Shown piece by piece: positions 1 to 25,598 of a stretch of DNA of 26,264 nt (the stretch's first letter is position 1; every line of letters begins with the position of its first letter). Source of the stretch: a virus. The notes under the pieces were generated by a model. That model ran no database searches and had not been told where the DNA came from. It saw only the letters and a list, made by a program, of their open reading frames with translations. The position numbers and the translations under genes are program-made. The stretch lies in IMG/VR virus record IMGVR_UViG_3300033151_000180, positions 1 to 26,264 of that record, one strand, 5' to 3'.

Positions 1-591
1 TCCCGACCCGCCGTTACGGTTCTCAGGATTCCAGTAGTCCTCGGCCACCTGCGTGGCCACCTGCCCGTGCAAGTAATCCTCAAACGCCTGCGCTTTCTCC
101 GCGTCGCGAAGCTCCGCGTTCGTGTCAGCCTCGGCCTGCGCCTTGGTCTTCGGCCCGATAGGCTTGGCGTAATCGTCGGGCTTGGTGAGGTCAAGCTTGG
201 CCCGGTACTCTTCCTCTTCCTTGGCTTTCTGGGCCTGCTCAGACTCAAGCTGCTTGACAGATTCCTCGTAGGCCTCTTGTGAGGCTTGCTGTTTTGGAGT
301 CAAGCTCATGCGACCGGCGGCACGTTTGCCTGCTGCACTGGGCTTGCCGGTTTTATCAGTGAACATGCTCGGCTGGTGGGGCGTGCGAGTACGCTCGTCC
401 ACACCACCCATGGCCTGTTCTTCCTCGGGGATAAAGCTGACTGTCGGCTCGCCTCCAAACATGTCGGGCTGCTCAGGCTTCTGGTCTATCAACATCTCCA
501 ACTTGTCGGCAATGCGGTTCATGGCCTGTACTTCTGGCGACTCGGGTGCTCTGGTTACGATATACGCCGCCTTACCTCGCTCCCCTTTCAC
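1..591 (-). CDS. Fourth segment of the large protein, open at the window edge
   Basis: Continuous open frame of 197 codons from GTG 591 to the window edge with no stop; the in-frame stop above it is at 601-603. 'VKGERGKAAYIVTRAPES' completes the end of the GNAT-like domain, then follow helical and charged linkers ('MNRIADKLEMLIDQKPEQ', 'QQASQEAYEESVKQLESEQA', 'KAKEEEEYRAKLDL'). No further enzyme domain is visible before the edge. It carries the reading frame expected if one base is removed from about 592-600, so it is probably the same gene as the three segments above it, giving at least 1,150 residues so far. GTG 591 is only the first possible start after the break, not a genuine gene start. 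Confidence 0.72.
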   Translation of the reverse strand, partial: MKGERGKAAYIVTRAPESPEVQAMNRIADKLEMLIDQKPEQPDMFGGEPTVSFIPEEEQAMGGVDERTRTPHQPSMFTDKTGKPSAAGKRAAGRMSLTPKQQASQEAYEESVKQLESEQAQKAKEEEEYRAKLDLTKPDDYAKPIGPKTKAQAEADTNAELRDAEKAQAFEDYLHGQVATQVAEDYWNPENRNGGSG

Positions 592-1099
592 TGCAGGCTG
601 TTACATTGTACCCTCGCCGCTCCAGTGCTTCGTACACACGTCGGGCTTCGGGTGAAACAGCCGCGCCTGAGTGTACTACTCTACCGGCGGCCAACTGCGC
701 ATCAATGAATTTCTTGTATAAAGCTACTCCGAACCCACGGCCTTTCAAGTCGGAGTCTAAGTCCAAAGTCTGATCAATCTGCGTTACACCTGCCTCGTGG
801 TCGACCGTGTACGTTATCCCTCCTATCTTATTTCCTTTGGAGTCTCTCATTTTCAAGGTTATGAGACCTTCTTCATCTGCCTCCAGTTCTTCAAATGTAG
901 CTTGTTCGGGGGACTCTGGCTCGGGTGCTGGCTCGGGTGCTGGCTCGGGTGCTGCCCTAACTTCGCGCCAAACATCTTTACTTATACGCTCATCTGCGGC
1001 GACCCACAGTTGCTCCCCGGCAAAAGTCGTTTTCAAGATGCCTAACTGAAGCCACGTACCCTGAAGCTGCTTTCTTGGCCGCCTCTTCAGAAAAACCAA
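572..1099 (-). CDS. Third segment of the large protein: second GNAT-like domain
   Basis: Only the part from about 1021 downward is meaningful; the first 26 residues from the 1099 start are an out-of-phase shadow of the previous segment. The segment continues 'FAGEQLWVAADERISKD', then a PEPA repeat linker (twelve-base tandem repeat on the plus strand at 916-951), then a complete GNAT-like domain: 'GNKIGGITYTVDH', the acetyl-CoA-binding loop 'LKGRGFGVALYKKF' and the end 'ARRVYEALERRGYNVT'. Frame is lost a third time around 592-600; the stray end is 'ACSERGAR'. With the missing base restored the protein reads on as 'PAVKGERGKAAYIVTRAPE' in the next segment. Confidence 0.75.
   Translation of the reverse strand: MVFLKRRPRKQLQGTWLQLGILKTTFAGEQLWVAADERISKDVWREVRAAPEPAPEPAPEPESPEQATFEELEADEEGLITLKMRDSKGNKIGGITYTVDHEAGVTQIDQTLDLDSDLKGRGFGVALYKKFIDAQLAAGRVVHSGAAVSPEARRVYEALERRGYNVTACSERGAR
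916..951 (-). repeat. 12-base tandem repeat encoding a Pro-Glu-Pro-Ala linker
   Basis: Three exact copies of CTGGCTCGGGTG on the plus strand, read on the minus strand as PEPA repeats, just before the second GNAT-like domain. The same unit occurs twice more at 1244-1267. Repeats of this kind change copy number easily and make hinge length variable. Confidence 0.85.
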
Positions 1100-2660
1100 G
1101 AACTTTTACCAACCTGTTCTTCATGGCCAACGCGCCCTTAGGCAGCTTACCAAGAGATTGTACCTGTTGGTCAAATTCCTCCTCTGACGGCATCCTCTCG
1201 CGCACGGTGACTTGTACATCTTCAGGCCGTAAGGCCCTTGGTGCTGGCTCGGGTGCTGGCTCGGGTGTGGTGTCCACCTCCATCCCCGGCAGAGTCTGCT
1301 GGGTCTGGTCAAATCCTGTGCCCGGGTCAACGCCAAGGTTCACGTCTGACTTGAGCGTCATGTCGGTAGTGTCTGACTCGGTGGTTCCAAGCTCACGGGT
1401 CTTGCCCGGTGTCGCCACGTCGCCAAGCAGTATGTCCTGCTGGTTAGGCAGGGAACCGTCGGCCTTGGGCTGGTGCCGTGTCTTGAGTAATTCCTGCTGG
1501 GCTGGTGCTTTCGTTATTGAGAACACAGAACCCTGAGCTGCGCCGGGGACATGCCAGCCAGTCTTCTCGTTGAAGGTAGCCTTCGGATTTGTCGTGACCT
1601 CGTAGCCCTTCAGCTTCAACGCCGCGTATGCGCGACCGGCAGAGGTAGAAACCGAGTTATCTGACTCGACTGTGCGCCCTTCCCCGCGTTGGATAGCAGG
1701 GTCAAGTTCCTCAGTCAACGAAACCCGCGCTGTCTTGCCATCGTTGACAACGTCGTATCCGATTCCACCGACAACTTCCCCGTTCAACTCTGCTACATGT
1801 CGCCGGTCATGGAAGCCTCCTTCTTCTATGTCGACATACTCCACCTCGGTTCCCTGCTCAACCCCTTCATCTATATTTTTCCGGCGCTGGTCACGCGGTG
1901 AAAGTTCCGGGCCGAGTAACTCGCCCTCAACAGGAGGAGGAGGAGAGGGGGGAGGCGAAGATGGCTCATCTGGTATGTCAGGCAGGTCAGCGGCACCAGC
2001 TTGTTCCCCCGCTGCGATCACAGGGGTAGGTGCATCCGGCATATCCGGCTCAGCGATAGGATCAGTGATTGGTTTCGGCTTGGGAGCAGGAGCCTCAGCA
2101 GAGCCAAAAGCTGCAGCCATGGCTCCTTCGGTCACACCACCACCCATCATGCCAAGGAAGCCCTGATTGGCTGCCTTCACGTAGTCAATAGGCTTGCCCG
2201 TTGCCAGCTCGCCGACAGCGGACTGGCCTGCCTCCTCTGGGAACTCAGTAATGCCTCCGCCAACGAAGCCTTTGGCCAGTCGGGTAAGGAAGGATTTGCC
2301 TGACGCAGCAAGGCCTTCACCTGCGCCGCCGGTCACGAAGGCCAGCGGAGCAATGATGCCAGCAGCGAAGGACGCGGACTCAGCGGCGGACTCGTGAGCC
2401 TCCTTGAGTGACTTGCCCTCCTCGCGAGCGTCTTCAAGCACTTCCTCGTACACAGACTTGTACGTTTCTGCCGTCACGTAGGCAGAGTTAGCTGCGCCGA
2501 AGCTGCCAGCCTTGGTTAATTTCGGGTACTTCTCTGTAATCTTCTTGAGCTTCTTGATCTTGTTCACGCCCTTGAGGAGCTTGAACCCGCCGGTAACAAT
2601 ACCCGCCGACGGTATGGCAGAGCCAGCGATCAAGTGTGCCACTTGGCGCAGGTTTGGCAT
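990..2660 (-). CDS. Second segment of the large transglycosylase protein, with first GNAT-like copy
   Basis: Not a separate gene in origin: its frame is open from 2693 and continues the transglycosylase protein. It holds Gly/Ala-rich helices of membrane-active type ('GGGITEFPEEAGQSAVGEL', 'GFLGMMGGGVTEGAMAAAFG'), a Pro-rich linker (about residues 195-245), then a GNAT-like region ('AELNGEVVGGIGYDVV...GRAYAALKLKGYEVT'). This copy lacks about 15 residues that the second copy has where the acetyl-CoA loop should be. A Pro-Glu repeat (PEPAPEPAP) and a helical region follow. At its end the frame is lost again at a TTTT run (1022-1025 on the minus strand), leaving the stray tail 'CRGATVGRRR'. A gene finder would start it at ATG 2660, an internal Met. 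Confidence 0.8.
   Translation of the reverse strand: MPNLRQVAHLIAGSAIPSAGIVTGGFKLLKGVNKIKKLKKITEKYPKLTKAGSFGAANSAYVTAETYKSVYEEVLEDAREEGKSLKEAHESAAESASFAAGIIAPLAFVTGGAGEGLAASGKSFLTRLAKGFVGGGITEFPEEAGQSAVGELATGKPIDYVKAANQGFLGMMGGGVTEGAMAAAFGSAEAPAPKPKPITDPIAEPDMPDAPTPVIAAGEQAGAADLPDIPDEPSSPPPSPPPPVEGELLGPELSPRDQRRKNIDEGVEQGTEVEYVDIEEGGFHDRRHVAELNGEVVGGIGYDVVNDGKTARVSLTEELDPAIQRGEGRTVESDNSVSTSAGRAYAALKLKGYEVTTNPKATFNEKTGWHVPGAAQGSVFSITKAPAQQELLKTRHQPKADGSLPNQQDILLGDVATPGKTRELGTTESDTTDMTLKSDVNLGVDPGTGFDQTQQTLPGMEVDTTPEPAPEPAPRALRPEDVQVTVRERMPSEEEFDQQVQSLGKLPKGALAMKNRLVKVLGFSEEAAKKAASGYVASVRHLENDFCRGATVGRRR
1244..1267 (-). repeat. Second copy of the PEPA-encoding 12-base repeat
   Basis: Two exact copies of CTGGCTCGGGTG on the plus strand, the same unit as at 916-951, in the linker between the two GNAT-like regions. 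Recombination between the two arrays would delete about 300 bases. Confidence 0.85.
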
Positions 2661-3462
2661 GTCGAACTGGACTTCCCCATCCTCGTCGATTCTTCATCCA
2701 CTCTGGGATGGTCTCGCGTACGTCTTCACCTTGCTTCTGCAGGTACGCTGCAAACTTGTCGGTAACATCGTCGTCGCCGAATCCGAAGTCGGCCATGTCA
2801 GCCAGTAGGGAGCCAACATCGTACGCACTGGCCCACAGGGATTTACCAAGCCCTTCCATCTCATCGCCCATCTTGGCGAAGAATCCACCCGGCGCTTCCG
2901 GGCCTTTGGGGGTCAGCGGAGATTGTGAGGCGCGGCGGATTGCTGTCTCAGCCTCGGTGCGTTTGTATAACTCTTCTGTCGGGGTGGATACCTTGTCCTC
3001 AAGACCTGTCAGCGACATGTCGGGAGCGGTGCCACTCGTTTGCGACAAGTGGCCAGCCTTCACCTTGTCAATATGGTTGCGGGTTTCTTCGGGCAGGTCA
3101 TCAAACTTACCGCCGTTCTTAATCCAGTTCTCAGTAGCGTCCGGCCCCCAATTATACGCAGCAAGGGCATGTTCAATGTTGCCATCAAACCTCTTCAACA
3201 TCTGGCTTGTGTAATCCGCCATAAACCGTATGCTCTCTCCCGGGTCGTCGAGAGGTTTACTTGGATCAAACGGGGTCACTCCGTAGCCGGGTTTGGCTGC
3301 GGTGGAAGGCAGAATCTGGCCCAACCCTATTGCCCCTTTTGGAGACACCGCACTGGGGTTGCCAGAACTTTCCTGCAGTATGCTGGCTTCAAGCAAGGCT
3401 GGGTCAAGCCCGTACCGCTTGGCGTTCTGTCGAATCAGGTCGGCGTAGTCTTGGACGGCCAT
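2488..3462 (-). CDS. N-terminal part of a very large protein: lytic transglycosylase (SLT) domain, frameshifted
   Basis: Start of a large virion protein that would cut peptidoglycan during DNA entry. Residues 1-140 are an SLT domain: catalytic Glu31 in 'ASILQESSGNPSAV', then 'GAIGLGQILPSTA' and 'ALAAYNWGPDAT', the three hallmark stretches of the goose-lysozyme-like family. Residues 150-257 are a linker with helical segments. In this frame the last 67 residues (after 2692) are out of phase and meaningless; the real protein continues in the next frame from 2690 ('IDEDGEVQFDMPNLRQV'), as if one base had been inserted at 2690-2692. The ATG at 3462 has GAGGAAA upstream. It is treated here as a fragment of one gene running from 3462 past the window edge. 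Confidence 0.88.
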   Translation of the reverse strand: MAVQDYADLIRQNAKRYGLDPALLEASILQESSGNPSAVSPKGAIGLGQILPSTAAKPGYGVTPFDPSKPLDDPGESIRFMADYTSQMLKRFDGNIEHALAAYNWGPDATENWIKNGGKFDDLPEETRNHIDKVKAGHLSQTSGTAPDMSLTGLEDKVSTPTEELYKRTEAETAIRRASQSPLTPKGPEAPGGFFAKMGDEMEGLGKSLWASAYDVGSLLADMADFGFGDDDVTDKFAAYLQKQGEDVRETIPEWMKNRRGWGSPVRHAKPAPSGTLDRWLCHTVGGYCYRRVQAPQGREQDQEAQEDYREVPEINQGWQLRRS

Positions 3463-3465
3463 GCG

Positions 3466-4398
3466 TTATTTCCTCGGGCGGTAACTTGCCTGCGGTACTT
3501 CGGGTTGGAGTTCTTCACCTGATACTGGGCCTGCATTGGAGTCTAGGTACCTTTTATCTCCGAGCATCAGCCGCTCAAACGGGCCACCGATATGTTCCTG
3601 ATACCCCTCTACAACTGCGTTAATGCCTTTGAAGTACGGGTCAAACTCTCCGCCTCCGTAAATCTCGCGGCCCGCCGCACCAAGTCCTTCAGCAGACATG
3701 AGTCCGAACTCCCTTCCAAGCTGTCGTGGTTGGCCTTCAACAAAGGAAGTTTTGCCCCCCTCACTGCTCTCCCCACTGCCTGTAAAGCTATCCCATGCTC
3801 GGCTCATCCACCCCTGTTCTTCCTCTTCAGGAACAACTTCTTCACCGCCCTCTTCAGCGGCCACCGGGTTAAGTTCTGTGTAGGTAGCAGGGTACTGAGA
3901 AAGTACCTGCTGCAAGTTGAACTCAGGCGCATCTTCTGCGCGACCGATAGTGGTGTTGTACGCACCCTCCAATCCCTTATACAGCTTCTCAAGTTTGGCT
4001 ATATCTGGGGCGGTCTCTGGTGTGTACAAACCTGCCTCGATCATTTTCTGCAGCGCGAGCTTAGGCTCACCGTCGAACTTGACCATGTTGTTAAACGTCT
4101 CAAGCTCCTGCGCTGACATTCCGTCCTTGCCATAGACACTTGAGACCATGGCACCGGCGCGGTTGTAGAACTTGTCTTCCCTCTTCTCGGCAATGTTGGT
4201 GGCTGCTGTCGACTTGTCGAAAGCCAACCGCTCAGTCATGAGACCTTGTCGCCCCTCGGAAATTTTCAGTAAGTTTTCCTGCCGTTGCTTCTCAAGAGAC
4301 AGCTTGCGATCTTCCCGGGCGTTCTGCTGGTAAAGCTGAGCTTGGTTGCCAGCTTCCATCAAGCCAGCACCGGCGGCTCTCATCATCCTGCGTCCCAT
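3466..4398 (-). CDS. Virion / ejection protein of unknown function, 310 residues
   Basis: The N-terminal third is a long charged helix ('YQQNAREDRKLSLEKQRQENL'), likely coiled coil, preceded by a basic start 'MGRRMMRAAGAGLMEAG'. The middle is helical ('LETFNNMVKFDGEPKLALQKM'). The last third is Glu/Gly rich and likely disordered. No enzyme motif or family recognised. Translationally coupled on both sides: the ATG overlaps the preceding stop, and the next gene starts three bases after its own stop. Position just before the transglycosylase protein matches the internal virion set of podoviruses. Confidence 0.75.
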   Translation of the reverse strand: MGRRMMRAAGAGLMEAGNQAQLYQQNAREDRKLSLEKQRQENLLKISEGRQGLMTERLAFDKSTAATNIAEKREDKFYNRAGAMVSSVYGKDGMSAQELETFNNMVKFDGEPKLALQKMIEAGLYTPETAPDIAKLEKLYKGLEGAYNTTIGRAEDAPEFNLQQVLSQYPATYTELNPVAAEEGGEEVVPEEEEQGWMSRAWDSFTGSGESSEGGKTSFVEGQPRQLGREFGLMSAEGLGAAGREIYGGGEFDPYFKGINAVVEGYQEHIGGPFERLMLGDKRYLDSNAGPVSGEELQPEVPQASYRPRK

Positions 4399-5279
4399 TA
4401 TCTACTCCCTCTCGGCATCCGGTTCGGGTCGCCCATCAACGCGTCAGCCTGCTCAGCCGGTGGCGGTATTACTGGTGGGGTAACAGGTACACCCCCGTCG
4501 CCCTCTTCAGGGTATCCGCTAGGTGGGTTAACCCCGTAGTATGTGTATTCACCGACGTTAACTTTATCGTCGTCGCGTTGCCATTGAGGCCTCTCGGCGT
4601 AGTCAACGGCTGGCCCGCTTGGCCCGTAGCTTGGTTCTGGGGATAACCCTGCGGCGGCGGACATGAGCGGCGAATCAGTAACCTTCTGCTTGGCTGCGGC
4701 TTCCATGGCGTCAGCCAGTGGCCTGCGTGCACCCAGTGCGGCTTCGTTGCCTGCTCGCATCATGTCGTTAGGGTTCATACCCTCGGCCTTGGCCCGGTTA
4801 TTCACGTAGTCAAAAGCCTTATTGATGCCCTTGTCTGCCATGTAATCGCGCATATCAGTAGCGGCTATCTGCTTCTGTTCTTCCGTGAACCCTGCTGCTT
4901 CTAGCTGCTCGCCATGGAGCACAGCTACCTTCAGAAGTACATCTTCCTTGAGCTGGGTTATATTTGTCCCGTCCATTACTTGATTGGCGGCTACCCCGAA
5001 CTCCTCGACCATGTCGATGGCTTCAGTGGTAAGGCCAAGAACAATATCCATGTCCATTTCGATGGTGGCCGTCTTGGCATTTTTATCCATAACGCCCCTC
5101 ACCGCCTTGTAGGCAATGTTGGCCATCGTCTGCCGCGTGTCGGTGCTGTCCCGCAGAAGCTTTTCGATCTGCTCAGAGCCAACGCCGTGGATATACTCCA
5201 TAACGTCCATGACCATGGTGTCGAATAACTCTTGCTCCCTCGGGTCAACGGGTGGCGTACCTTCAACTTGTCTAGGCAT
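4398..5279 (-). CDS. Virion / ejection protein of unknown function, 293 residues
   Basis: Mostly helical and acidic in the first 190 residues ('EQELFDTMVMDVMEYIHGVG', 'IEMDMDIVLGLTTEAIDMVEE'), then Pro/Gly-rich and probably disordered to the end, where 'EQADALMGDPN' repeats the motif found at the end of the previous protein. No recognised family. The ATG at 5279 overlaps the previous stop by eight bases and has GGAG nine bases upstream; a TTG two codons earlier is less likely. Its stop shares a base with the next ATG (TAATG). Function in the ejection set is inferred from gene order. Confidence 0.75.
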   Translation of the reverse strand: MPRQVEGTPPVDPREQELFDTMVMDVMEYIHGVGSEQIEKLLRDSTDTRQTMANIAYKAVRGVMDKNAKTATIEMDMDIVLGLTTEAIDMVEEFGVAANQVMDGTNITQLKEDVLLKVAVLHGEQLEAAGFTEEQKQIAATDMRDYMADKGINKAFDYVNNRAKAEGMNPNDMMRAGNEAALGARRPLADAMEAAAKQKVTDSPLMSAAAGLSPEPSYGPSGPAVDYAERPQWQRDDDKVNVGEYTYYGVNPPSGYPEEGDGGVPVTPPVIPPPAEQADALMGDPNRMPRGSR

Positions 5280-6156
5280 TTGCAAATTCTCCCCAGTCGC
5301 CCATCAAGGCGTCTGTCTGGACTCTCCCATCGGTTCCTCGCTGCATGCCTCCGGGCATAACTGACTGCTGTGCCCGACTCTGCTGCGCGTTCATTAAGCC
5401 ATCGGCGGCCTCACTTCCTCCCCCACCGGCTCCAACAATGGCTCCTTCGCCGCCCCCAGCTCCGGGTACGGCAAGGGCGCTGCGGCCCGGGCCGACTTCG
5501 CCGTCCTTGGTGGTTCCGTAGTAGTCCACGTTCTTGAACTCACTTGGCTGGCCCGCCATGGCCAAAGCTGCACCGGCGATAGGCGCGATAACTGCTCCGT
5601 ATTTCATGGCTGTGTCAAGCGACAAGCCTTTTGTGGCTGCGTCTTTCGTGGCCTGTGTGACCGTGGTCTTGGCTGCGTCCGAGATTCCGGGGACGATTGC
5701 CGTACTGCCTTCGGCCAAGGCTACCTCGCCCATGGTACTTCCAACTACACCCGGCATACCTGCAGACGCGGCGGGAGCGGCTGTACCTGCGAGCACGCTG
5801 GCTGAGTTGGCTGTCATTCCCGGCATCATGGCTGCGTTGGCCGCCAGTCCTGTATCTACACCAACCGCTCCTGTTCCAATTATGGCTTCGCCTGCTGCAG
5901 TAGCTTCGCCAGCGGCGGCGGCACCGAAGCCTCCCTCGCCGATTCCAAACGTACCTGCGATGGCTGTCGCTCCCGACCACATGGTCGAGCCGACTGCTCC
6001 CATAAATCCCCCGAAGGAGTTCACTCCTGCGAAGGCAGTGAACCCTACACTGGCTACGCCCGCTGTAAACACGGTGGCAGCGACAAGGGCTATAACCATC
6101 CAGTTATCCTTGACGAACTTCCAAGCTTTCTTCAGGCCTTTCTTGATAAAACTCAC
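5272..6156 (-). CDS. Gly/Ala-rich membrane-active ejection protein candidate, 294 residues
   Basis: The N-terminus is a basic amphipathic helix ('SFIKKGLKKAWKFVKDNW') followed by a hydrophobic segment ('MVIALVAATVFTAGVASV') long enough to cross a membrane. The remainder is Gly/Ala/Thr rich with hydrophobic patches and few charged residues, then a Gly-rich tail ending 'TDALMGDWGEFANA'. This fits a protein that inserts in the host envelope during DNA ejection. The start is a GTG at 6156 with AGGAG eight bases upstream, overlapping the previous stop by four bases (GTGA); a longer frame from 6195 has no such site. A holin is less likely because of the length, low-complexity body and place among the virion genes. 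Confidence 0.75.
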   Translation of the reverse strand: MSFIKKGLKKAWKFVKDNWMVIALVAATVFTAGVASVGFTAFAGVNSFGGFMGAVGSTMWSGATAIAGTFGIGEGGFGAAAAGEATAAGEAIIGTGAVGVDTGLAANAAMMPGMTANSASVLAGTAAPAASAGMPGVVGSTMGEVALAEGSTAIVPGISDAAKTTVTQATKDAATKGLSLDTAMKYGAVIAPIAGAALAMAGQPSEFKNVDYYGTTKDGEVGPGRSALAVPGAGGGEGAIVGAGGGGSEAADGLMNAQQSRAQQSVMPGGMQRGTDGRVQTDALMGDWGEFANA

Positions 6157-6611
6157 GCTGCTTTCTCCTGTGCTTCCTGCAAGTCCATGACCCACGCGTC
6201 GCCAACGGAACGGAACCCTGACAACTTGTAGAACATGTGCACTTTGCCGGTCGGGTCTTCATTGGCGATGCCCATAATAATTTTACTTGCGCGGTGCTCT
6301 CTGGCCCAACGCTTAAACTCACCCAGTATCTCAATCCCACCGGCCTCACACATGAAGTGAATGTCCGTGGCGTAGACCATCTTGTTAAAGATAAACTGGT
6401 CTACCGTAGCCAGTAGAACCCCAACGATGCGGTCAGTGTCATTGCGCACGATCAGAATATCTGAACCATCCTCTCGTACTACCCTCACCATGTTCCGCTT
6501 GAATAGCACCGGGTTAAAATCAATCTCTGCCCAAGACGACTTCACGTGCTGGGACTTACAGAACCTCACAATCTCCGTGACGGCTAAATAGTTTGCAACG
6601 CTTGCCTTCAC
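6153..6611 (-). CDS. GNAT-fold acyltransferase-like protein in the ejection block, 152 residues
   Basis: Reads as a Gcn5-related N-acetyltransferase fold: strands 'SDILIVRNDTDRIVGVLLATV' leading to an acyl-CoA-binding helix region ('GGIEILGEFKRWARE') and the family's typical end 'MFYKLSGFRSVGDAWVMDL' (aromatic, then Gly-Phe, then a final strand). The usual Q/RxxGxG/A loop is not clear, so catalysis is uncertain. Stand-alone GNAT-like proteins occur among podovirus structural genes, where they may modify host or virion proteins. The GTG start overlaps the previous stop (GTGA). Two further GNAT-like segments lie in the large protein at the low end of the window. Confidence 0.75.
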   Translation of the reverse strand: MKASVANYLAVTEIVRFCKSQHVKSSWAEIDFNPVLFKRNMVRVVREDGSDILIVRNDTDRIVGVLLATVDQFIFNKMVYATDIHFMCEAGGIEILGEFKRWAREHRASKIIMGIANEDPTGKVHMFYKLSGFRSVGDAWVMDLQEAQEKAA

Positions 6612-7864: not shown

Positions 7865-10800
7865 TCACCTGTCGTCTCGGAGTTCAGCGTCGTTCAGGAA
7901 TGTAATCATCTGAACAACATGGGGAAATTCTACCGCACTTTTGTGTGCGATGCGTAGGGAGACAGCGAACCCTCTGGCGGTAAGCCTGCCCTTGGTGTAC
8001 TTTTCAGTGGTAACATCTTCGGGTTTCATCTCTTCCGAACCAAACGGAATAGACTCATACGGCTGCTCTGGATTATCCATCGCTTCGTAGTTCACACTTC
8101 GGGACACGCGCATGTTGGCATACCCTGCCACCTTGCCGTGAACATGGAAGACACTGAACCGTTTGGCTTTGCCGGGAGCAGGTGCGCCCGTCTGCTCAGA
8201 CTTGCCATAGTAGTGCGTGAGTTCGATATAGGCCTCGATGGCGAACCCGTCGAAGCTGCGGCCCCTGTCCAACTCGTAGACAAAGTCCGTCTCGGGTGTA
8301 ACTACCGCAATCCCTGCCTGTGGTGTGTGCGGCCTCTCCTCAGTGGAGAAAAACGCGTGATCTTTGCCGGACGTACTCACCCCCGACGCGGTGGCGTAGA
8401 CCCGAGCGAACTGCTCACGGGAGGCGTTAAACCAATACTGCTGGATTGTGTTCTGGGGTTCCTTCTCCGGGCCAACATAGGTCAGGGTCAGGACATATCC
8501 GTCGGCGAAAAACAGGCGGTACTGGTTCTTGTTGCGCACCACCACGCTGTTCACTACAGACTCGTCGGTAGTCTCCACACCTGCTGCCGACTGGAGGCGG
8601 CGGAGCAGCCACGGTGACACATCGTAGGTCAGCGGAGCCGTGAAGAAATCAGAGTACTGATCCATGGTCTCCAGCGTTTCGATTCCACGGAAGCTGGCGA
8701 AGATGGGCCGGTTGCCAATGTTCTGTACCGTGTACTCAATGGCTCCAACTTTATGGTTCACGACCTGCTGCTCAACTGTCTCAAGCGCAGCTTCGCCGAA
8801 GCCTTGTACGGCCCCGATCAGGACGTTCGTAGTCGACTCAGTGAACACTGCCAACGCCTTGCCAGCGGCAGGCATCAAGCCGGTAATCTTGTCCCCGAAC
8901 CCGTAGCTCGCAGCCAGCCCTGTTGAAGCACTGAAGTCAAGCGGGTCTGGGCCAGATGCGTACACCTCTCCCCAGATGTAGCCAAGGTGGAGCCTGTTCT
9001 CGTGAGGCGCAATGTGCCGGGGCTTATCATCCTCCACGTCCACGCCTGTTGGGATGAAGTCGAGCGTCTCGCCGTCGTACCAGAAAGCAAAACCAGCGCC
9101 GCTCACACCGTAGATAGCGTTCTGTTCTTCGGTGGCGAAAAAGTTGTACGAGATCATCTGGTATCTGGAGTGGTTCTCGTCCAGAAGTCTCGATCCCGGC
9201 AGTGTCGGCGTAGCCACACTTCCTGAGAGGGTGCATATTTGCAGGCCTGTGCCTCCCGGCTCTGTCCACACTTCCGTACCCGAGGGTATGGAGGTTATAG
9301 ACCAGTCTTTCAGGCGGAAGTAGCCAGCGGCCAAACCGGGTACAGGGATTCCCCCGCCCCACTGGCCTGACTGAACTACTGTACTCTCGACACTTATGTA
9401 CCCAATGTCTGTCGTTCCCGTCGGGTCGTACAGGTACAGCTTCGCTCCCGGCAGGCGGTCAACGACAACCTGAAGGGCCACGGCATCGAGTGTTGGCTGA
9501 CAAGGTGACGAGTATGTCTTCGCCACAAAATGGATACCGAAGTCCGACGCGTTAAGTGCCTGCGGCGAAGACGGTGCCCAAGGAATATTCCCCGAGGTGT
9601 AGTCCAGAAGGTTCGGGGCTACCGGGCAGCTTGCAGAGGTGCCAGAATTTGAGGGGGCGGTAATTATTCTTACCTTCCACGACGCCCCGAAAGTACCGGC
9701 GTCTCGGCATGTGAACACTGCGCGAACCGACTTCACCACGTCGTTGTCCAGCAGGCCCAACTTGAAGTCGCGTGCTTTCAGGTACAGCGAGACCCCTACA
9801 AGCCCGGGAATCTGCCCGCCTGCTATGTTGCAGCTTGAGGTTACGCCGTCTTTTAGTTTTATATCGTCCAGCGGGGTTGACCAAGCGCCTTGCGTTCCTG
9901 TGCCTTGAACCACTGAGTTCGGGAATTTGGTAATCGTCACAGCAGTTGGGTTTGCCGTATCCAAGGGATCGACCAAGCCGTCTACGAATGACAGCACGCT
10001 GCCGGTTGTCGCGGCTTCCCAGCCATCGTCCGTGCTTTTCCACATGGTGGCAAGGTCGGACTTGCTTGACACCGACTCGGGAGCCAATGCGAATTTCTGG
10101 TGCAGGAACATGACTGACTCAATGGTCATGGCTCCTGTCTGGGTTTGGTTATTAAATATCTCAGAGATGGTCGGGCCGGTATCGGGGCCGTTTATGAACG
10201 CAGCCACTCCCAACGCGTTGTCACTGTCGAAGCTGCCGTCACGTCTGTCTACCTCACCAACGGTGCCTGCCCATGCAGACGTGTCGCCAAGGACAGAGTC
10301 TCCGAACTCGAACAGTCCCGAACCTGTGTTGAACCTGAGTGTCAGCGCGATGTGGAAAACCTCACCTGCCCCGACTGTAAAGCCGTCCTGATTGATGGCC
10401 GTGATGTTCACGTACCGATCATCATTGGCCCCGGTAGAAACCAAGCCAACCTGACCAGCGTCGTTATACACGTACATGCCGGGTATAAGCGTGCCTTCGT
10501 CGCCCTCAGCTACCTTGATCTGCAGCATGTCGCGTATGGCATGAAGCTGATCTTCGTGGTAGTGCAGGCCAACAATGGTGCCGCCACCCGGGACGGGCTT
10601 GACCACACCGCGCAGGATTTCCGCGTAGGTACTCAGCGTACCGAGGAAATCCTCGTGCCTGCTGTGTATGTCTGACAACTTGTAGACAGTGACACTGGCT
10701 TCGGCGAGTACAAACGACCACGTATCTGCTTTATCTGAGATCACACTGCCCCAGCGCGGGCGTACCCGGCCTTGGCGAAATACGATTGACAGTGATGTAA

Positions 10801-11104
10801 CGCCGCCTGACTCAACGTAGTCCACCATCGTACCAGATGATCCGTCCTCATCTTCAAACGTCCAGACAAGATCAGTCGGCTGATCCTGCGGCGTTCCCGT
10901 CACGTCGTCGGTGGGCAGGATCACTACCCAGTAGTCGGTAGCGGAGGGAGAGATGTGCCCATCGAAGCGTTCCCAGCCGTCGATGCGGGCGTACCCACGT
11001 TCCCAACCAACCTCGTAGTTCAGGCAGGCTCGGATTCGACCGGGCAGGACGGCGGGTCTGGCGCGTACTAAATCGAGACCACCGTCGAGGAGGACATTAT
11101 CCAC
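7865..11104 (-). CDS. Tail hub / nozzle protein, 1079 residues
   Basis: A very large beta-rich tail protein. Its N-terminus 'LDGGLDLVRARPAVLPG' followed by 'CLNYEVGWERGYARIDGWERF' is typical of the tail-tube/nozzle proteins of large podoviruses. The C-terminal part has 'NQYRLFFADGYVLTL' and a beta-propeller-like alternation around residues 700-950. It plays the part of T7 gp12 but is longer than that protein. The start is a GTG with GGAG five to six bases upstream, two bases after the adaptor stop. It is the largest complete gene here. The family call is good; an exact structural match cannot be checked without a search. Confidence 0.85.
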   Translation of the reverse strand: MDNVLLDGGLDLVRARPAVLPGRIRACLNYEVGWERGYARIDGWERFDGHISPSATDYWVVILPTDDVTGTPQDQPTDLVWTFEDEDGSSGTMVDYVESGGVTSLSIVFRQGRVRPRWGSVISDKADTWSFVLAEASVTVYKLSDIHSRHEDFLGTLSTYAEILRGVVKPVPGGGTIVGLHYHEDQLHAIRDMLQIKVAEGDEGTLIPGMYVYNDAGQVGLVSTGANDDRYVNITAINQDGFTVGAGEVFHIALTLRFNTGSGLFEFGDSVLGDTSAWAGTVGEVDRRDGSFDSDNALGVAAFINGPDTGPTISEIFNNQTQTGAMTIESVMFLHQKFALAPESVSSKSDLATMWKSTDDGWEAATTGSVLSFVDGLVDPLDTANPTAVTITKFPNSVVQGTGTQGAWSTPLDDIKLKDGVTSSCNIAGGQIPGLVGVSLYLKARDFKLGLLDNDVVKSVRAVFTCRDAGTFGASWKVRIITAPSNSGTSASCPVAPNLLDYTSGNIPWAPSSPQALNASDFGIHFVAKTYSSPCQPTLDAVALQVVVDRLPGAKLYLYDPTGTTDIGYISVESTVVQSGQWGGGIPVPGLAAGYFRLKDWSITSIPSGTEVWTEPGGTGLQICTLSGSVATPTLPGSRLLDENHSRYQMISYNFFATEEQNAIYGVSGAGFAFWYDGETLDFIPTGVDVEDDKPRHIAPHENRLHLGYIWGEVYASGPDPLDFSASTGLAASYGFGDKITGLMPAAGKALAVFTESTTNVLIGAVQGFGEAALETVEQQVVNHKVGAIEYTVQNIGNRPIFASFRGIETLETMDQYSDFFTAPLTYDVSPWLLRRLQSAAGVETTDESVVNSVVVRNKNQYRLFFADGYVLTLTYVGPEKEPQNTIQQYWFNASREQFARVYATASGVSTSGKDHAFFSTEERPHTPQAGIAVVTPETDFVYELDRGRSFDGFAIEAYIELTHYYGKSEQTGAPAPGKAKRFSVFHVHGKVAGYANMRVSRSVNYEAMDNPEQPYESIPFGSEEMKPEDVTTEKYTKGRLTARGFAVSLRIAHKSAVEFPHVVQMITFLNDAELRDDR

Positions 11105-20610: not shown

Positions 20611-22191
20611 CTATGTTTTGTAACTAAAGTTAATGCTCATGTAGCCATTCGATTCCAGATTGCTTCCCTGCAGTGGTGCTTCCGCCGTGTCTTCGCTCAG
20701 CTTAACAAGCTGGACACTTGTTGCGCCACTCTCCATGCGTCCGCTAACGTAGCGTGCGGCTGTTGGGCTGCTGCCCAGCTTAACCTCTTTGCCGGGTACT
20801 GCGAAACCTGTCGCGTTTGCGCACGCTGTTGGGAACCCTCCGACGGACAGCGCACCAGCCGATCCACCTGTGCTCCACGTGACCCGACCCGAGCAGATGG
20901 CCATGCCCTCAACGTACGCAACGTGGATAGTACCACCGACCCCACTTGCGCCGGTAAGCGTTGGTGTGAAACTTGTCGCGGAGGAAGGTGCTGGCTCGCC
21001 TTGATAACCCTGCGGGCCTTGTGAGCCATCGTCACCCGTCTGTCCGGGTGCGCCTTGGAACCCGGGCGAACCCTGAGCACCTGTGTTGCCGATAGAACCT
21101 CTATCCCCTTGCGCACCTTCGGCACCTTGAGCACCTGTACCGCCCGTGTTGCCTGTTAAACCTTGCGCACCTTGCGCACCATCCGCGCCGTCGTTGCCCG
21201 CGTTGCCTTTCAGGCCCTGTGCGCCCTGCGGGCCATCAGAACCCTGCGCCCCTGCCAACCCGCCGTCACCCTGCGGGCCTGCAACCGTTGAATCTGCACC
21301 AGTTAGGCCTTGGGCACCATCGGCCCCTTGGGCACCATCAGCCCCTTGCGGGCCTAGGATTGGGCCGATGTTAACCCACGCTGACGTACCGTCGAACACG
21401 ACAATATCGCCAACCGTACCGGGGCCATAAGGACTCGGTGGGGCAAGTGGGTCTGTGTCTGTCAAAGCCCACGCTTCGTTCTGTACAGGCGACGGCAGCA
21501 GGGCAATGTTCGCCCACGTGTCGATGCCTTTGAATATTACGGACTGCGCTGGGTCGCCCTGCGGGCCAACATCTCCCTGTGGGCCGGGGACGTTGGATAC
21601 GCCTGCGCTCCCTTGAACGCCCTCGTCACCTTGGAAACCTTGGAAACCCTGCGGGCCTTGTGGGCCTTCCGGGCCTTGGATCGGGCCGATATTCTCCCAC
21701 TCAATACCTGTCCATACCACCGCGTCGCCAACCTTTGCTGGTCGCAAGGGGCCAATGTCCGGGTCGTCAATCGGTGGGGCGTTGGGGTCTGCGTCAACCA
21801 GTACCCACAAGTCGTTAAGGATCATGCTGGTTAGCAACGCGATGTAAGCCCACGTGGCTGTACCCTTGAAAGCGAAGCCATAGCCCCGGTCGCCTTGCGG
21901 GCCTTGCGGGCCTTCCAGCACTTCAAGCTGGCCAACATTAACCCACTCTGTACCGTTCCATACTACCCAATCGCCCGGTACGGCTGGGCCAATCGAACTA
22001 TCTGGTGCGCCTGCCACCGGCTCGATAAGTTCCCACGCGTCCCCTATGCCGGGAGCCGGGACAAGCGCAATGTTGTCCCACGAGTCGTGGCCTTGGGGGA
22101 TGAAGCTGATCGACGGCTCGCCTTGAAACCCCTGTGGGCCTTGCGTACCGGGGACTCCGTTGAAATTCAGGTAACTTGAAAGTAACGTCAT
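20611..22191 (-). CDS. Modular collagen-like tail fibre protein, 526 residues
   Basis: Residues 1-26 open with a short Gly-X-Y segment. Three related globular modules follow at about residues 27-92, 104-173 and 216-282. Each runs through a 'F-K/I-G...TWANIALL' strand, a 'W.L.D' strand, a Pro-rich turn and a 'GD.VVW.GT.WVNIGP' strand, and each is separated from the next by GPQG segments. Residues 280-400 are a long collagen-like block. Residues 401-526 form a separate C-terminal domain beginning 'SFTPTLTGASGVGGTIHV' that is probably the tip. The gene follows its neighbour by nine bases with an AGGAAA ribosome site. Module order and similarity to the other fibre gene suggest both are built from the same interchangeable parts. 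Fibre identity is well supported; the receptor is unknown. Confidence 0.87.
   Translation of the reverse strand: MTLLSSYLNFNGVPGTQGPQGFQGEPSISFIPQGHDSWDNIALVPAPGIGDAWELIEPVAGAPDSSIGPAVPGDWVVWNGTEWVNVGQLEVLEGPQGPQGDRGYGFAFKGTATWAYIALLTSMILNDLWVLVDADPNAPPIDDPDIGPLRPAKVGDAVVWTGIEWENIGPIQGPEGPQGPQGFQGFQGDEGVQGSAGVSNVPGPQGDVGPQGDPAQSVIFKGIDTWANIALLPSPVQNEAWALTDTDPLAPPSPYGPGTVGDIVVFDGTSAWVNIGPILGPQGADGAQGADGAQGLTGADSTVAGPQGDGGLAGAQGSDGPQGAQGLKGNAGNDGADGAQGAQGLTGNTGGTGAQGAEGAQGDRGSIGNTGAQGSPGFQGAPGQTGDDGSQGPQGYQGEPAPSSATSFTPTLTGASGVGGTIHVAYVEGMAICSGRVTWSTGGSAGALSVGGFPTACANATGFAVPGKEVKLGSSPTAARYVSGRMESGATSVQLVKLSEDTAEAPLQGSNLESNGYMSINFSYKT
20992..21354 (-). repeat. Collagen-like repeat block of the modular fibre
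   Basis: Encodes residues 280-400 of the 526-residue fibre, rich in GAQG, GPQG and GADG triplets, and joins the three globular modules to the C-terminal domain. Confidence 0.85.
21349..22113 (-). repeat. Three related globular fibre modules
   Basis: Modules at 21916-22113, 21673-21882 and 21349-21546 each encode about 66-70 residues that align over 'TWANIALL', 'W.L.D', a Pro-rich turn and 'GD.VVW.GT.WVNIGP', separated by short Gly-X-Y stretches. They have diverged enough to be old duplications. Confidence 0.8.
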
Positions 22192-22200
22192 GTCGTTTTC

Positions 22201-23094
22201 CTATGAGAAGGCGAGGCTTAGCAAGAACGCGTTAAGCGTGTCTGGGGAGCCTGAAATACTCGCCTCCGCTGTGAAGGGTATGGCTGCGCTGGAGCCTACA
22301 GGAACCCCACGATACATGTGGGCATACTGAGCCTCCGTAGCAGGGGCGCTCCATGCAACCGCGTTGTATTCATTAGGGTCTACGCTAAGTATGGGGAACC
22401 CTGCAGTGGAATCCGAGACGTTACCTACCCAGAAAGTAACCAGTGTGTACGCCCCTTGTACCTCGTTGCCGGGTAATGTGAGGGAACCGCCCGTCTGGTT
22501 ATTCACTTCACCTTGGTAGAAATCAATTCCGTTGTCATAAGTTTGCCCCGGCCCAACTGTGACCGTGAACACTTGGGTCAGCATAGATAGCCCAGTCTGT
22601 GGCTCGGCACCGTAGTCGGCTGGAGCGATTACAACATCGCAAGTCTCCCCGGTAGGTACGTGGAATACTTGGACATACGCTGTGCTATACGGGCCTGACC
22701 CGCCCGGAGCTACTTTGGTATCGAAGGAAGGAGCGACTCCATTTACCGTGTTGAAAAAATCGTCGGGTGTGCCAGAAGATGGAGCAATAGCCTGCGCTTG
22801 TATGACCAAGATAACGAACCTATCCGCGTGGGCTACACCGATAGGTACCCCGTTCATAGGTACGGAACCTGTTGGTGGTACGGGGTTGGATAGGAGACTC
22901 TGCCTGAACTGAACCATGGACTCTGCTTCAAGTGAGACCCATTGTGTACCGTCCCAGATAGACTTCTTGAGACCTGCCTCACCACCCGTCACATTCACAA
23001 ACCCACCAGCGTCCGCGACATGTTGAGGCCAGATGTTCTCGCCCGCGTGCATCGAGTCGAACGAACTGCCGTTGAACATGTGCGCCTTGGGCAT
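22201..23094 (-). CDS. Fibre-associated protein, possibly the distal part of the preceding fibre
   Basis: A 297-residue protein with no collagen repeat. A TTG at 23112 would give a longer form, but the ATG at 23094 shares its A with the stop of the upstream fibre (TAATG), typical of translational coupling, so I start it there. The N-terminus '[15 protein letters not shown]' and 'IWDGTQWVSL' near residue 45 belong to the short beta-motif family that recurs in phage fibre modules ('GDIWID...WDGTQWV'). The rest is Gly, Thr and Val rich and looks like a beta-structured receptor-contact or decoration domain, but I recognise no specific family. It lies between two collagen-like fibre genes, so a role in the fibre or in host contact is likely. 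It may once have been, or may still be, one protein with the upstream gene. Confidence 0.75.
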   Translation of the reverse strand: MPKAHMFNGSSFDSMHAGENIWPQHVADAGGFVNVTGGEAGLKKSIWDGTQWVSLEAESMVQFRQSLLSNPVPPTGSVPMNGVPIGVAHADRFVILVIQAQAIAPSSGTPDDFFNTVNGVAPSFDTKVAPGGSGPYSTAYVQVFHVPTGETCDVVIAPADYGAEPQTGLSMLTQVFTVTVGPGQTYDNGIDFYQGEVNNQTGGSLTLPGNEVQGAYTLVTFWVGNVSDSTAGFPILSVDPNEYNAVAWSAPATEAQYAHMYRGVPVGSSAAIPFTAEASISGSPDTLNAFLLSLAFS

Positions 23095-25598
23095 TAGCTG
23101 TTGTCGATCCAAATGTCGCCAACGGCTGGGCTACCCGGAGCCGCTGCCGCCACGGTGACAGTGACCGAAGTACCTGCCGAACCTGTTGCGCCGCTGTCGC
23201 CTTGTGGGCCTGCACCACCAGTCGCGCCATCGTCACCCTGTGGGCCTGCGCCGCCCGTCGCGCCCTGCGCTCCGTCGCCACCCTGTGGGCCTTCACCACC
23301 TGCGTTACCTGTATCGCCTTGTGGGCCGGGTTCACCTTGGGCACCGTCTCCGCCGTCGTCACCCTGCGGGCCAGCAACTGTACTTGGTGCGCCGGTTGCG
23401 CCCTGCGCTCCATCGCCGCCTTGGGTACCGGGAGCACCGTCCGCGCCTTGAGAACCTGTTCCGCCATCGTCACCCTGCGGGCCGGGTACGGTCGAGACCG
23501 CGCCTGTTGAACCCTGCGCTCCGGTGTCGCCTTGTGGGCCAGCGACCACTGAGTCCGCGCCAGTAGCACCTTGAGCACCATCCTCACCCTGCGGGCCTGC
23601 AACAGTCGATGGGCTACCTTGCGTACCCTGCGCTCCGTCAATTCCTTGCGGGCCGGGTACGGTTGAGGCAGCGCCTTGTGGGCCGGGAACAGTTGAGTCG
23701 GCACCCGTTACACCAATATCACCTTGGGCACCAGTGTCTCCGATCTCACCTTGGAAACCCTGCGGGCCTTGGGCACCTTCATCACCTTGGGCACCTTCAT
23801 CACCTTGGAAACCCTGCGGGCCTTGTGGGCCTGCAACCGGCTCGGCGCTTATGCGCCAGAACATTCTGACCTGCTGGTTGTTGCCCAGCGGTACCCCGGT
23901 CACATCGAAGCTCGCCACAGGTACTTCAAAAATATCCCCGTTCAAAACTGCGGGGCCGGTCACATCGTACTGCTCGGCGTTATTCACATCGCCGTCGTCA
24001 TGAATGTTCAGCCAATCAGTGGTGTCAATGTTCTCTAAGAACAGCGTCAGATCATCGCCGATCTGATCCGTTTTGTTGATGTACAACATGACGGCAAGGG
24101 CTGGGTCTACTCCGTTGCGAGAGATATACCCCGAGCCGGGTGTTGTGGTGGCAGCGTTGCTAGACCTGTAGTCAAATTCGTGTACGCCGAGCACTGACTT
24201 CGGTGTTCTCGGAACCCATAGGCCCAAGCCCACGTTCCATGTCAGAACCTGCCCGTCACTGTTGCCTGAAGTATCCACATCTGTGTGCGTTGTCAACGCG
24301 TGGGCAGCAGAGCCTGAACCTTCTTCTCCTTGAAAACCCTGCGGCCCCTGACTACCTTGCGCCCCTGTCGAGCCGTCGGCACCTTGTGGCCCCGCTACCG
24401 TCGAGTCGGCACCTTGATCACCTTGCGGCCCTGTCAGTCCTGTTGTGCCCTGCGGCCCCGGTACAGTTGAAGCCACACCTTGATAGCCCTGCGGGCCTGC
24501 TGGGCCTAAATCTCCATCGCCGTCAACACCATCCACGCCCTGCACACCAGTCGGGCCTTGTGCGCCAGTCGGGCCAGTTGCGCCAGTCGGGCCTGCGACT
24601 CCGGGGTTGCCCTGCGGGCCATGCACGCCTTGGAAACCCTGCGGGCCTTGGTCGCCCTCTTCGCCTTCAGCACCAATGGCATCGGGGTTGATCGCCCAGT
24701 TGCCGTTGCCGTCATAGACAAACAGCGTCGTACCCCAAGCGAGGTCGATAATAAAATGGTCGTCGATTTTATCAATTGTGTAGTCCGGGTTCTCCGGGTT
24801 ACGCAAGACATAACAGTATCGATTGATGCAGTTGCCGGACACGTCCAGCACTTCTGTGAAGTTGTCTTTCACCGGGTTGGCAGGGAGAACAATACCGATC
24901 ATATCGAACTCGGTGTTCACGCCATAGGGCGTGTTGCTCTTGGCATACAGGCTGGCTTCGGTGTAGACAAAATCAGAATTGATAAACCCCGGGCCACCGA
25001 GATTCTCGGTGTACGTGACCATGGAGTAAACATCAGATCGTAGGCACACCAGCTCCAGCTTGGAACCGGCAGGCATCTCAATATCTTCAGTAAACGGTAC
25101 GCCTTTGTGGATAACCTGAACACCGGAGTTGATGCTCTTGAAGCGGACAATCACAAGCCCGCCTGATTTCCTTCCGTTGTGAAGAACCACGGTACTCGCA
25201 GGTCGCCCACCAGTCAGATCGCAATGTTGAACGACAAGGTCAGGCGCGGTGAAAGTCAGTCGGGCGTTGCCGTTGGTGACTGTAACGTCGCCGGGAACAC
25301 CCAGCCAAATTCTGTCATTGATGGTCTGCGCGGCTGCGCCGATTACCCAACGTACGTTGGCCGCGTCCCATGATACTAAACACGGCACGCCGGTCTGGAA
25401 GAAATCCACTTCCGCCGGAACGTAATCATCTTCCATGTCCTGCCAACGAACAGCGGGAAAGTACCCGCTGCAGTCGTTAAGTGAAATCTCTACATGTTCT
25501 TGGTTTGGTTGGTCAGGAACCAACACGAAGCTATCTTGGTTTCTAAGGAGACCGTCGGTCACGCCGTCCGCTTGGATGCAATATCTTGTGGTGGCCAT
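23094..25598 (-). CDS. Collagen-like tail fibre protein, 834 residues
   Basis: Large fibre-type protein. Residues 1-308 are a non-repetitive beta-rich region, probably the virion-attachment part. Residues 309-428 form a Gly-X-Y collagen-like block dominated by GPQG, GFQG and GAQG. Residues 430-588 form a second globular domain. Residues 589-809 are a longer Gly-X-Y block. The last 25 residues end in '[14 protein letters not shown]'. The triplet is broken at intervals by an (S)TVxGPQG insert, for example at residues 376, 398, 634, 644, 663, 701 and 738. Collagen-like segments are common in phage fibres and form trimeric rods. The start is supported by GGAGG six bases before the ATG. The stop overlaps the next ATG (TAATG). 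The C-terminus looks cut short, because the 'GDIWID' motif normally leads into another module, and the next gene could supply it. Confidence 0.88.
23172..23834 (-). repeat. Collagen-like repeat block, long
   Basis: Encodes residues 589-809 of the 834-residue fibre: Gly-X-Y triplets, mainly GPQ, GAQ and GDD types, with STV breaks. Two exact copies of a 23-base element (CCTTGGAAACCCTGCGGGCC plus three bases on the plus strand) lie at its upstream end, at 23749-23771 and 23803-23825. Confidence 0.85.
24315..24674 (-). repeat. Collagen-like repeat block, short
   Basis: Encodes residues 309-428 of the 834-residue fibre, with [16 protein letters not shown] and GPQG runs. Contains another exact copy of the 23-base element at 24628-24650. 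Confidence 0.85.

Follow-up and report, generated by a model that had tools for sequence, protein, structure and literature searches.

A probable DarB-like giant gene carrying tandem GNAT-like domains at the end of a podovirus-like virion module

Polyvalent proteins are multi-domain products of genes in late-gene positions, and their published description lists LPD38, peptidoglycan-cutting and GNAT domains among their components (Iyer et al., 2017, PMC5512222). In the T7 gp16-type family, for which ejection and wall cleavage have been described, gp16 itself comprises 1,318 aa (PMC8954989). The giant protein gp69 of phage JC1 has been detected in virions by mass spectrometry (PMC9144972). JC1 serves here as the Bcep22-like comparison because a search of the collection did not turn up Bcep22; the JC1 gp69 (4,515 aa) contains an SLT domain at residues 71-164 and LPD38 at residues 4196-4401.

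The window, the whole stretch of DNA analysed here, is a phage record of 26,264 bases, with a virion module of podovirus-like type on its minus strand. The genes for tail fibres, terminase, portal, capsid and connector are followed by a separate, solo acetyltransferase gene (6153-6611, minus strand; phrog_1249 E 7e-7), three small genes and then a giant gene, which closes the module where the contig ends. The solo acetyltransferase gene has a homologue in Pseudoalteromonas phage vB_Pun_Y3 (Y3; E 5e-8) and lies where JC1 has gp63 and Y3 has its acetyltransferase gene. The three small genes (3466-6195, minus strand) are recognized by gene order alone, as searches for sequence matches found none; their place is held in JC1 by virion-associated genes and in Y3 by three unnamed genes. 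Elsewhere in the window, positions 7865-11104 encode a 1,079-aa protein that has no Pfam match but resembles the Y3 stabilization protein (532 aa) at both ends; ~575 residues lie between the matching ends vs 76 in Y3. Two long tail-fibre-like genes (20611-22191 and 23094-25598) have several PHROG tail-fibre families in common.

The region at the contig edge is, with good confidence, the first half of one DarB-like polyvalent giant gene of a Bcep22/933W-like podovirus. Its product would be carried in the head and leave with the DNA, combining a wall-opening SLT domain with exchangeable GNAT cargo that may acetylate host proteins or counter defence.

One reading frame in a sibling contig

The region is covered by four consecutive frames on the window's minus strand (3462-2488, 2660-990, 1099-572 and 591-1), in the order reported earlier, and the first-pass annotation had taken them to encode a single protein. 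This is borne out by a sibling contig, IMGVR_UViG_3300013101_000079, which aligns to the window gap-free over 8.8 kb at 95.9% DNA identity and contains the same region as a single intact ORF of 1,535 codons (L002:9173-13780), with a plausible ribosome site upstream. The proposed order of parts is also that of the sibling frame: SLT, Gly/Ala-rich helices, GNAT 1, PEPA linker, GNAT 2 and charged helices. When codons of the two contigs are compared, dN/dS ranges from 0.00 to 0.24 across the eight segments, so all the pieces were translated in one frame until recently; every window segment is under purifying selection, and chance open frames would not give values of 0.24 or below. Separate genes with starts of their own were considered and rejected because the sibling ORF is unbroken, its segments forming one frame. 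As for close relatives of the whole protein, searches returned one other contig in viral_contigs and none in genome_contigs.

The N-terminal SLT lytic transglycosylase domain (about residues 1-140; 3043-3462, minus strand; Pfam SLT E 9.9e-24) is present in both window and sibling, a feature of the Bcep22/JC1 DarB-like giants. In the window it contains the catalytic-Glu motif QES..SPKGA.GLGQ and AYNWGP, has SLT70-type PDB matches and matches the PHROG T7-gp16-type internal virion protein at the N-terminus of the profile (E 1.1e-25). A further segment (2690-3042, minus strand) leads to a Gly/Ala-rich helical region (2100-2689, minus strand) with hydrophobic stretches, evident in the sibling hydropathy. 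This region is nearly identical in the two contigs (dN/dS 0.01) and weakly matches the N-terminal part of the N4-type virion RNA polymerase (phrog_2206, E 1.7e-5). By analogy with T7 gp16, the giant protein would be carried inside the head and leave it together with the DNA, the SLT domain would open the peptidoglycan, and the helical and LPD38 parts may constitute a conserved delivery chassis. The packaging and ejection model comes from the literature on gp16 and on polyvalent proteins, and is standard for the class (PMC8954989, PMC5512222).

A patch at window 3143-3790, which takes in the greater part of the SLT domain and the last part of the gene before it, diverges from the sibling, with dS 0.65 vs 0.05 just after, a pattern that suggests allele exchange by recombination.

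Interruptions in both copies

The breaks between the window frames had been put down to single bases at three places, an explanation that alignment to the sibling does not uphold. Relative to the sibling, the window is missing 26 nt near 2690 (the first frame break), 51 nt near 1681 (17 codons, in frame) and 5 nt near 601 (the third frame break), and has 292 nt extra at about 955-1246 (minus strand), within which the second frame break lies. One base at each of three places is thus the net effect on the frame, because each out-of-frame event shifts it the same way. The insertion encodes an extra, third small domain between PEPA-coding repeats, present in the window and absent from the sibling, the first part of which has no Pfam match. 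Flanking repeats were considered as an explanation for the losses of 26 and 5 nt, but microhomology is absent there; the 51-nt loss has 3 bases of it. The four indels fall in a stretch of 3.4 kb, vs none in the adjoining aligned 8.8 kb. Since every segment is still under purifying selection, the breaks are either very recent events in this genome or errors of assembly close to the end of the contig.

The contig edge truncates the charged helical region (1-544, minus strand); the sibling frame runs for ~1,060 further residues, comprising charged helices, one TAG and LPD38: residue 1535 is followed by the TAG (L002:13778-13780) and then, in the same frame, by a 595-codon ORF (P0002) containing LPD38 (E 3e-27), for which no evident ribosome site of its own was found. 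Because the sibling frame continues in this way, the intact giant protein is probably about 2,140 residues long, judging from sequence.

The TAG itself is anomalous, as relatives are open at that site. ctsTn925 is contiguous across it, the site lying within an NP-F-N-ARD motif also found in the Vibrio and MetMV giants. No in-frame stop occurs within 300 codons upstream of the LPD38 match in any of 83 relatives, some of which reach the contig end first, and in 69 of the 83 the frame is open for >1,000 codons. All eight relatives that also match sibling residues 1090-1535 have that match and LPD38 in one open frame. Reading of the TAG as an amino acid was considered and discarded because TAG terminates other genes of the window and the sibling. 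With frame breaks in one copy and a TAG in the other, a complete, uninterrupted gene of this lineage has therefore not been seen.

These interruptions raise the question of whether, in this phage, the window gene has truly decayed to a pseudogene or exists naturally as several separate genes. The concentration of indels in the giant gene and the in-frame stop of the sibling would fit such a state. It is nevertheless fairly unlikely, given that selection is intact across all segments, that the same segments form one frame in the sibling and that P0002 has no ribosome site of its own, while the breaks are concentrated in the terminal 2.7 kb of the contig, the part in which assembly is weakest. 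A single giant gene with recent or artefactual breaks is the reading followed below.

Beyond the sibling giant gene, a 228-aa Pro/Gln/Gly-rich protein without family matches follows directly (L002:15592-16278), and a 1,088-aa primase/DUF927-type protein is encoded just beyond on the opposite strand (L002:16275-19541).

Tandem GNAT-like domains

The two GNAT-like regions of the giant gene, copy 1 (1510-1860, minus strand) and copy 2 (545-905, minus strand, with the third frame break in it), had been proposed from the window sequence, and structure prediction of both now agrees with a GNAT fold in each. The case is strong for copy 2 (pLDDT 75; VIA-align Z 11.8 to GNAT folds) and moderate for copy 1, modelled from the sibling with moderate confidence (pLDDT 67; Z about 8). 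In the sibling protein copy 2 also matches Pfam Acetyltransf_1 (E 6.5e-6, 26.8 bits vs a cut-off of 20.7); the third window frame (1099-572) gives a weak Pfam GNAT match just under the cut-off (E 0.0014). By sequence the two copies are paralogues, with 39% identity and a local score of 178 vs a shuffle maximum of 60.

The acetyl-CoA loop, [QRK]xxGx[GA], is found in both sibling copies as RGKGAG (copy 1) and KGRGFG (copy 2), each accompanied by the conserved Tyr. The roles of the glycine loop and of this Tyr are well established for GNATs. Copy 2 of the window retains the loop and the Tyr, whereas copy 1 has lost the loop together with the next helix through the 51-nt deletion, which had escaped the first-pass annotation. 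The window copy as sequenced therefore does not support the earlier picture of two working GNATs.

Whether the GNATs are catalytic at all bears on their role, as leftover or structural folds could instead contribute to packing or binding in the virion. The damaged window copy 1 would suit such a role, as would the models of both copies, which have no helices ahead of the first strands although most GNATs do, and the failure to find close GNAT relatives in other phage giants. A non-catalytic role is unlikely all the same, since neither sibling copy has lost the glycine loop or the conserved Tyr and dN/dS is 0.16 for copy 1 and 0.24 for copy 2.

If the domains are active, their substrates may be nucleic acids or small molecules, as in Mom-like DNA modification or TacT-like acetylation of aminoacyl-tRNA, instead of host proteins. 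A GNAT fold by itself is compatible with different substrates, and TacT and small-molecule acetyltransferases are among the fold matches of the GNAT copies. Against this, the GNATs of polyvalent proteins are placed in a RimI-like, protein-modifying clade by Iyer et al. (PMC5512222), and RimI is among the best fold matches to copy 2, albeit with many ties; a substrate other than protein is accordingly rather improbable.

The favoured picture is one in which the GNATs are exchangeable cargo, released or displayed in the host, that would act early in infection by acetylating host proteins, RimI-like targets being the most likely, or by countering defence. More tentatively, and with some doubt, one ejected chain may deliver a transglycosylase together with a pair of protein acetyltransferases, the cargo being swapped or gained by recombination at the repeats that encode the Pro-Ala linkers. 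The extra window domain between linker repeats suggests a gain or swap of this kind, and the two contigs, which are nearly identical but differ in one entire domain flanked by linkers, would then offer a snapshot of cargo exchange. If host proteins are indeed the substrates of the GNAT pair, the opening minutes of infection would provide a directly testable case of protein acetylation carried out by a phage protein that has been injected.

Comparison with other phage giants

SLT and GNAT domains were surveyed in 77 LPD38 records, including the sibling, with the Acetyltransf_1 and SLT models only; giant frames were defined as >1,000 aa. An SLT domain lies within a giant frame in 2 of the 77, the sibling and a metagenomic record (G059) in which a single frame of 5,218 aa contains both SLT and LPD38, many of the records surveyed being fragments. 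A GNAT match within a giant frame was found in nine (the sibling and eight others), a count from which divergent GNATs may be missing given the Acetyltransf_1 model. Two GNAT matches in one giant frame are confined to the sibling (0 of the 76 other records). Among isolated phages, only the SLT and LPD38 ends were matched, the middle piece matching nothing. Searches with the GNATs alone gave nothing significant in phages, nothing in plasmids and no relatives in viral_contigs.

The sibling protein shares with polyvalent proteins the combination of SLT and two GNATs in one frame, with LPD38 after the TAG. Tandem GNATs with PEPA linkers are not met in the available part of the published description, and a metallopeptidase, unlike in the polyvalent proteins described there, was not found in the giant studied here (PMC5512222). 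The resemblance to T7 gp16 lies in an SLT domain placed at the very N-terminus and, behind it, a largely helical body that includes hydrophobic stretches. It does not extend to homology over the whole length: the main PHROG match is confined to residues 4-188, and sequence similarity was not found past roughly the first 185 residues.

Other phages carry giants in which part of this arrangement recurs. The 3,421-aa giant of Y3 occupies a syntenic position in a related virion module but has no SLT or GNAT match, and its cargo consists of DdrB-ParB, ART, methyltransferase, LPD5 and LPD1. The giant of Ruegeria phage 45A6 (3,912 aa) resembles the present one in its GNAT cargo and C-terminal LPD38; it differs in having a single GNAT stretch and no SLT match, and in carrying a helicase and a methylase.

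The comparison with Bcep22- and DarB-type phages made in the first-pass annotation is supported by JC1. Its gp69 begins with SLT and ends with LPD38; the sibling encodes these two end domains as well, LPD38 in the same frame but after one TAG. In both JC1 and the window the giant is the last large gene of the virion module, immediately preceded by several virion genes and a solo acetyltransferase gene. They differ in the middle of the protein, where gp69 has methylase, helicase and LPD3 and the giant described here, less than half as long, has two GNATs. Giant ejected proteins of the Bcep22 type thus vary around recurrent ends, SLT and LPD38, each phage having a middle of its own. As the end domains and the gene order match those of the virion protein gp69, neither the family nor the concept that polyvalent proteins are injected is new; what is new is the tandem-GNAT cargo.
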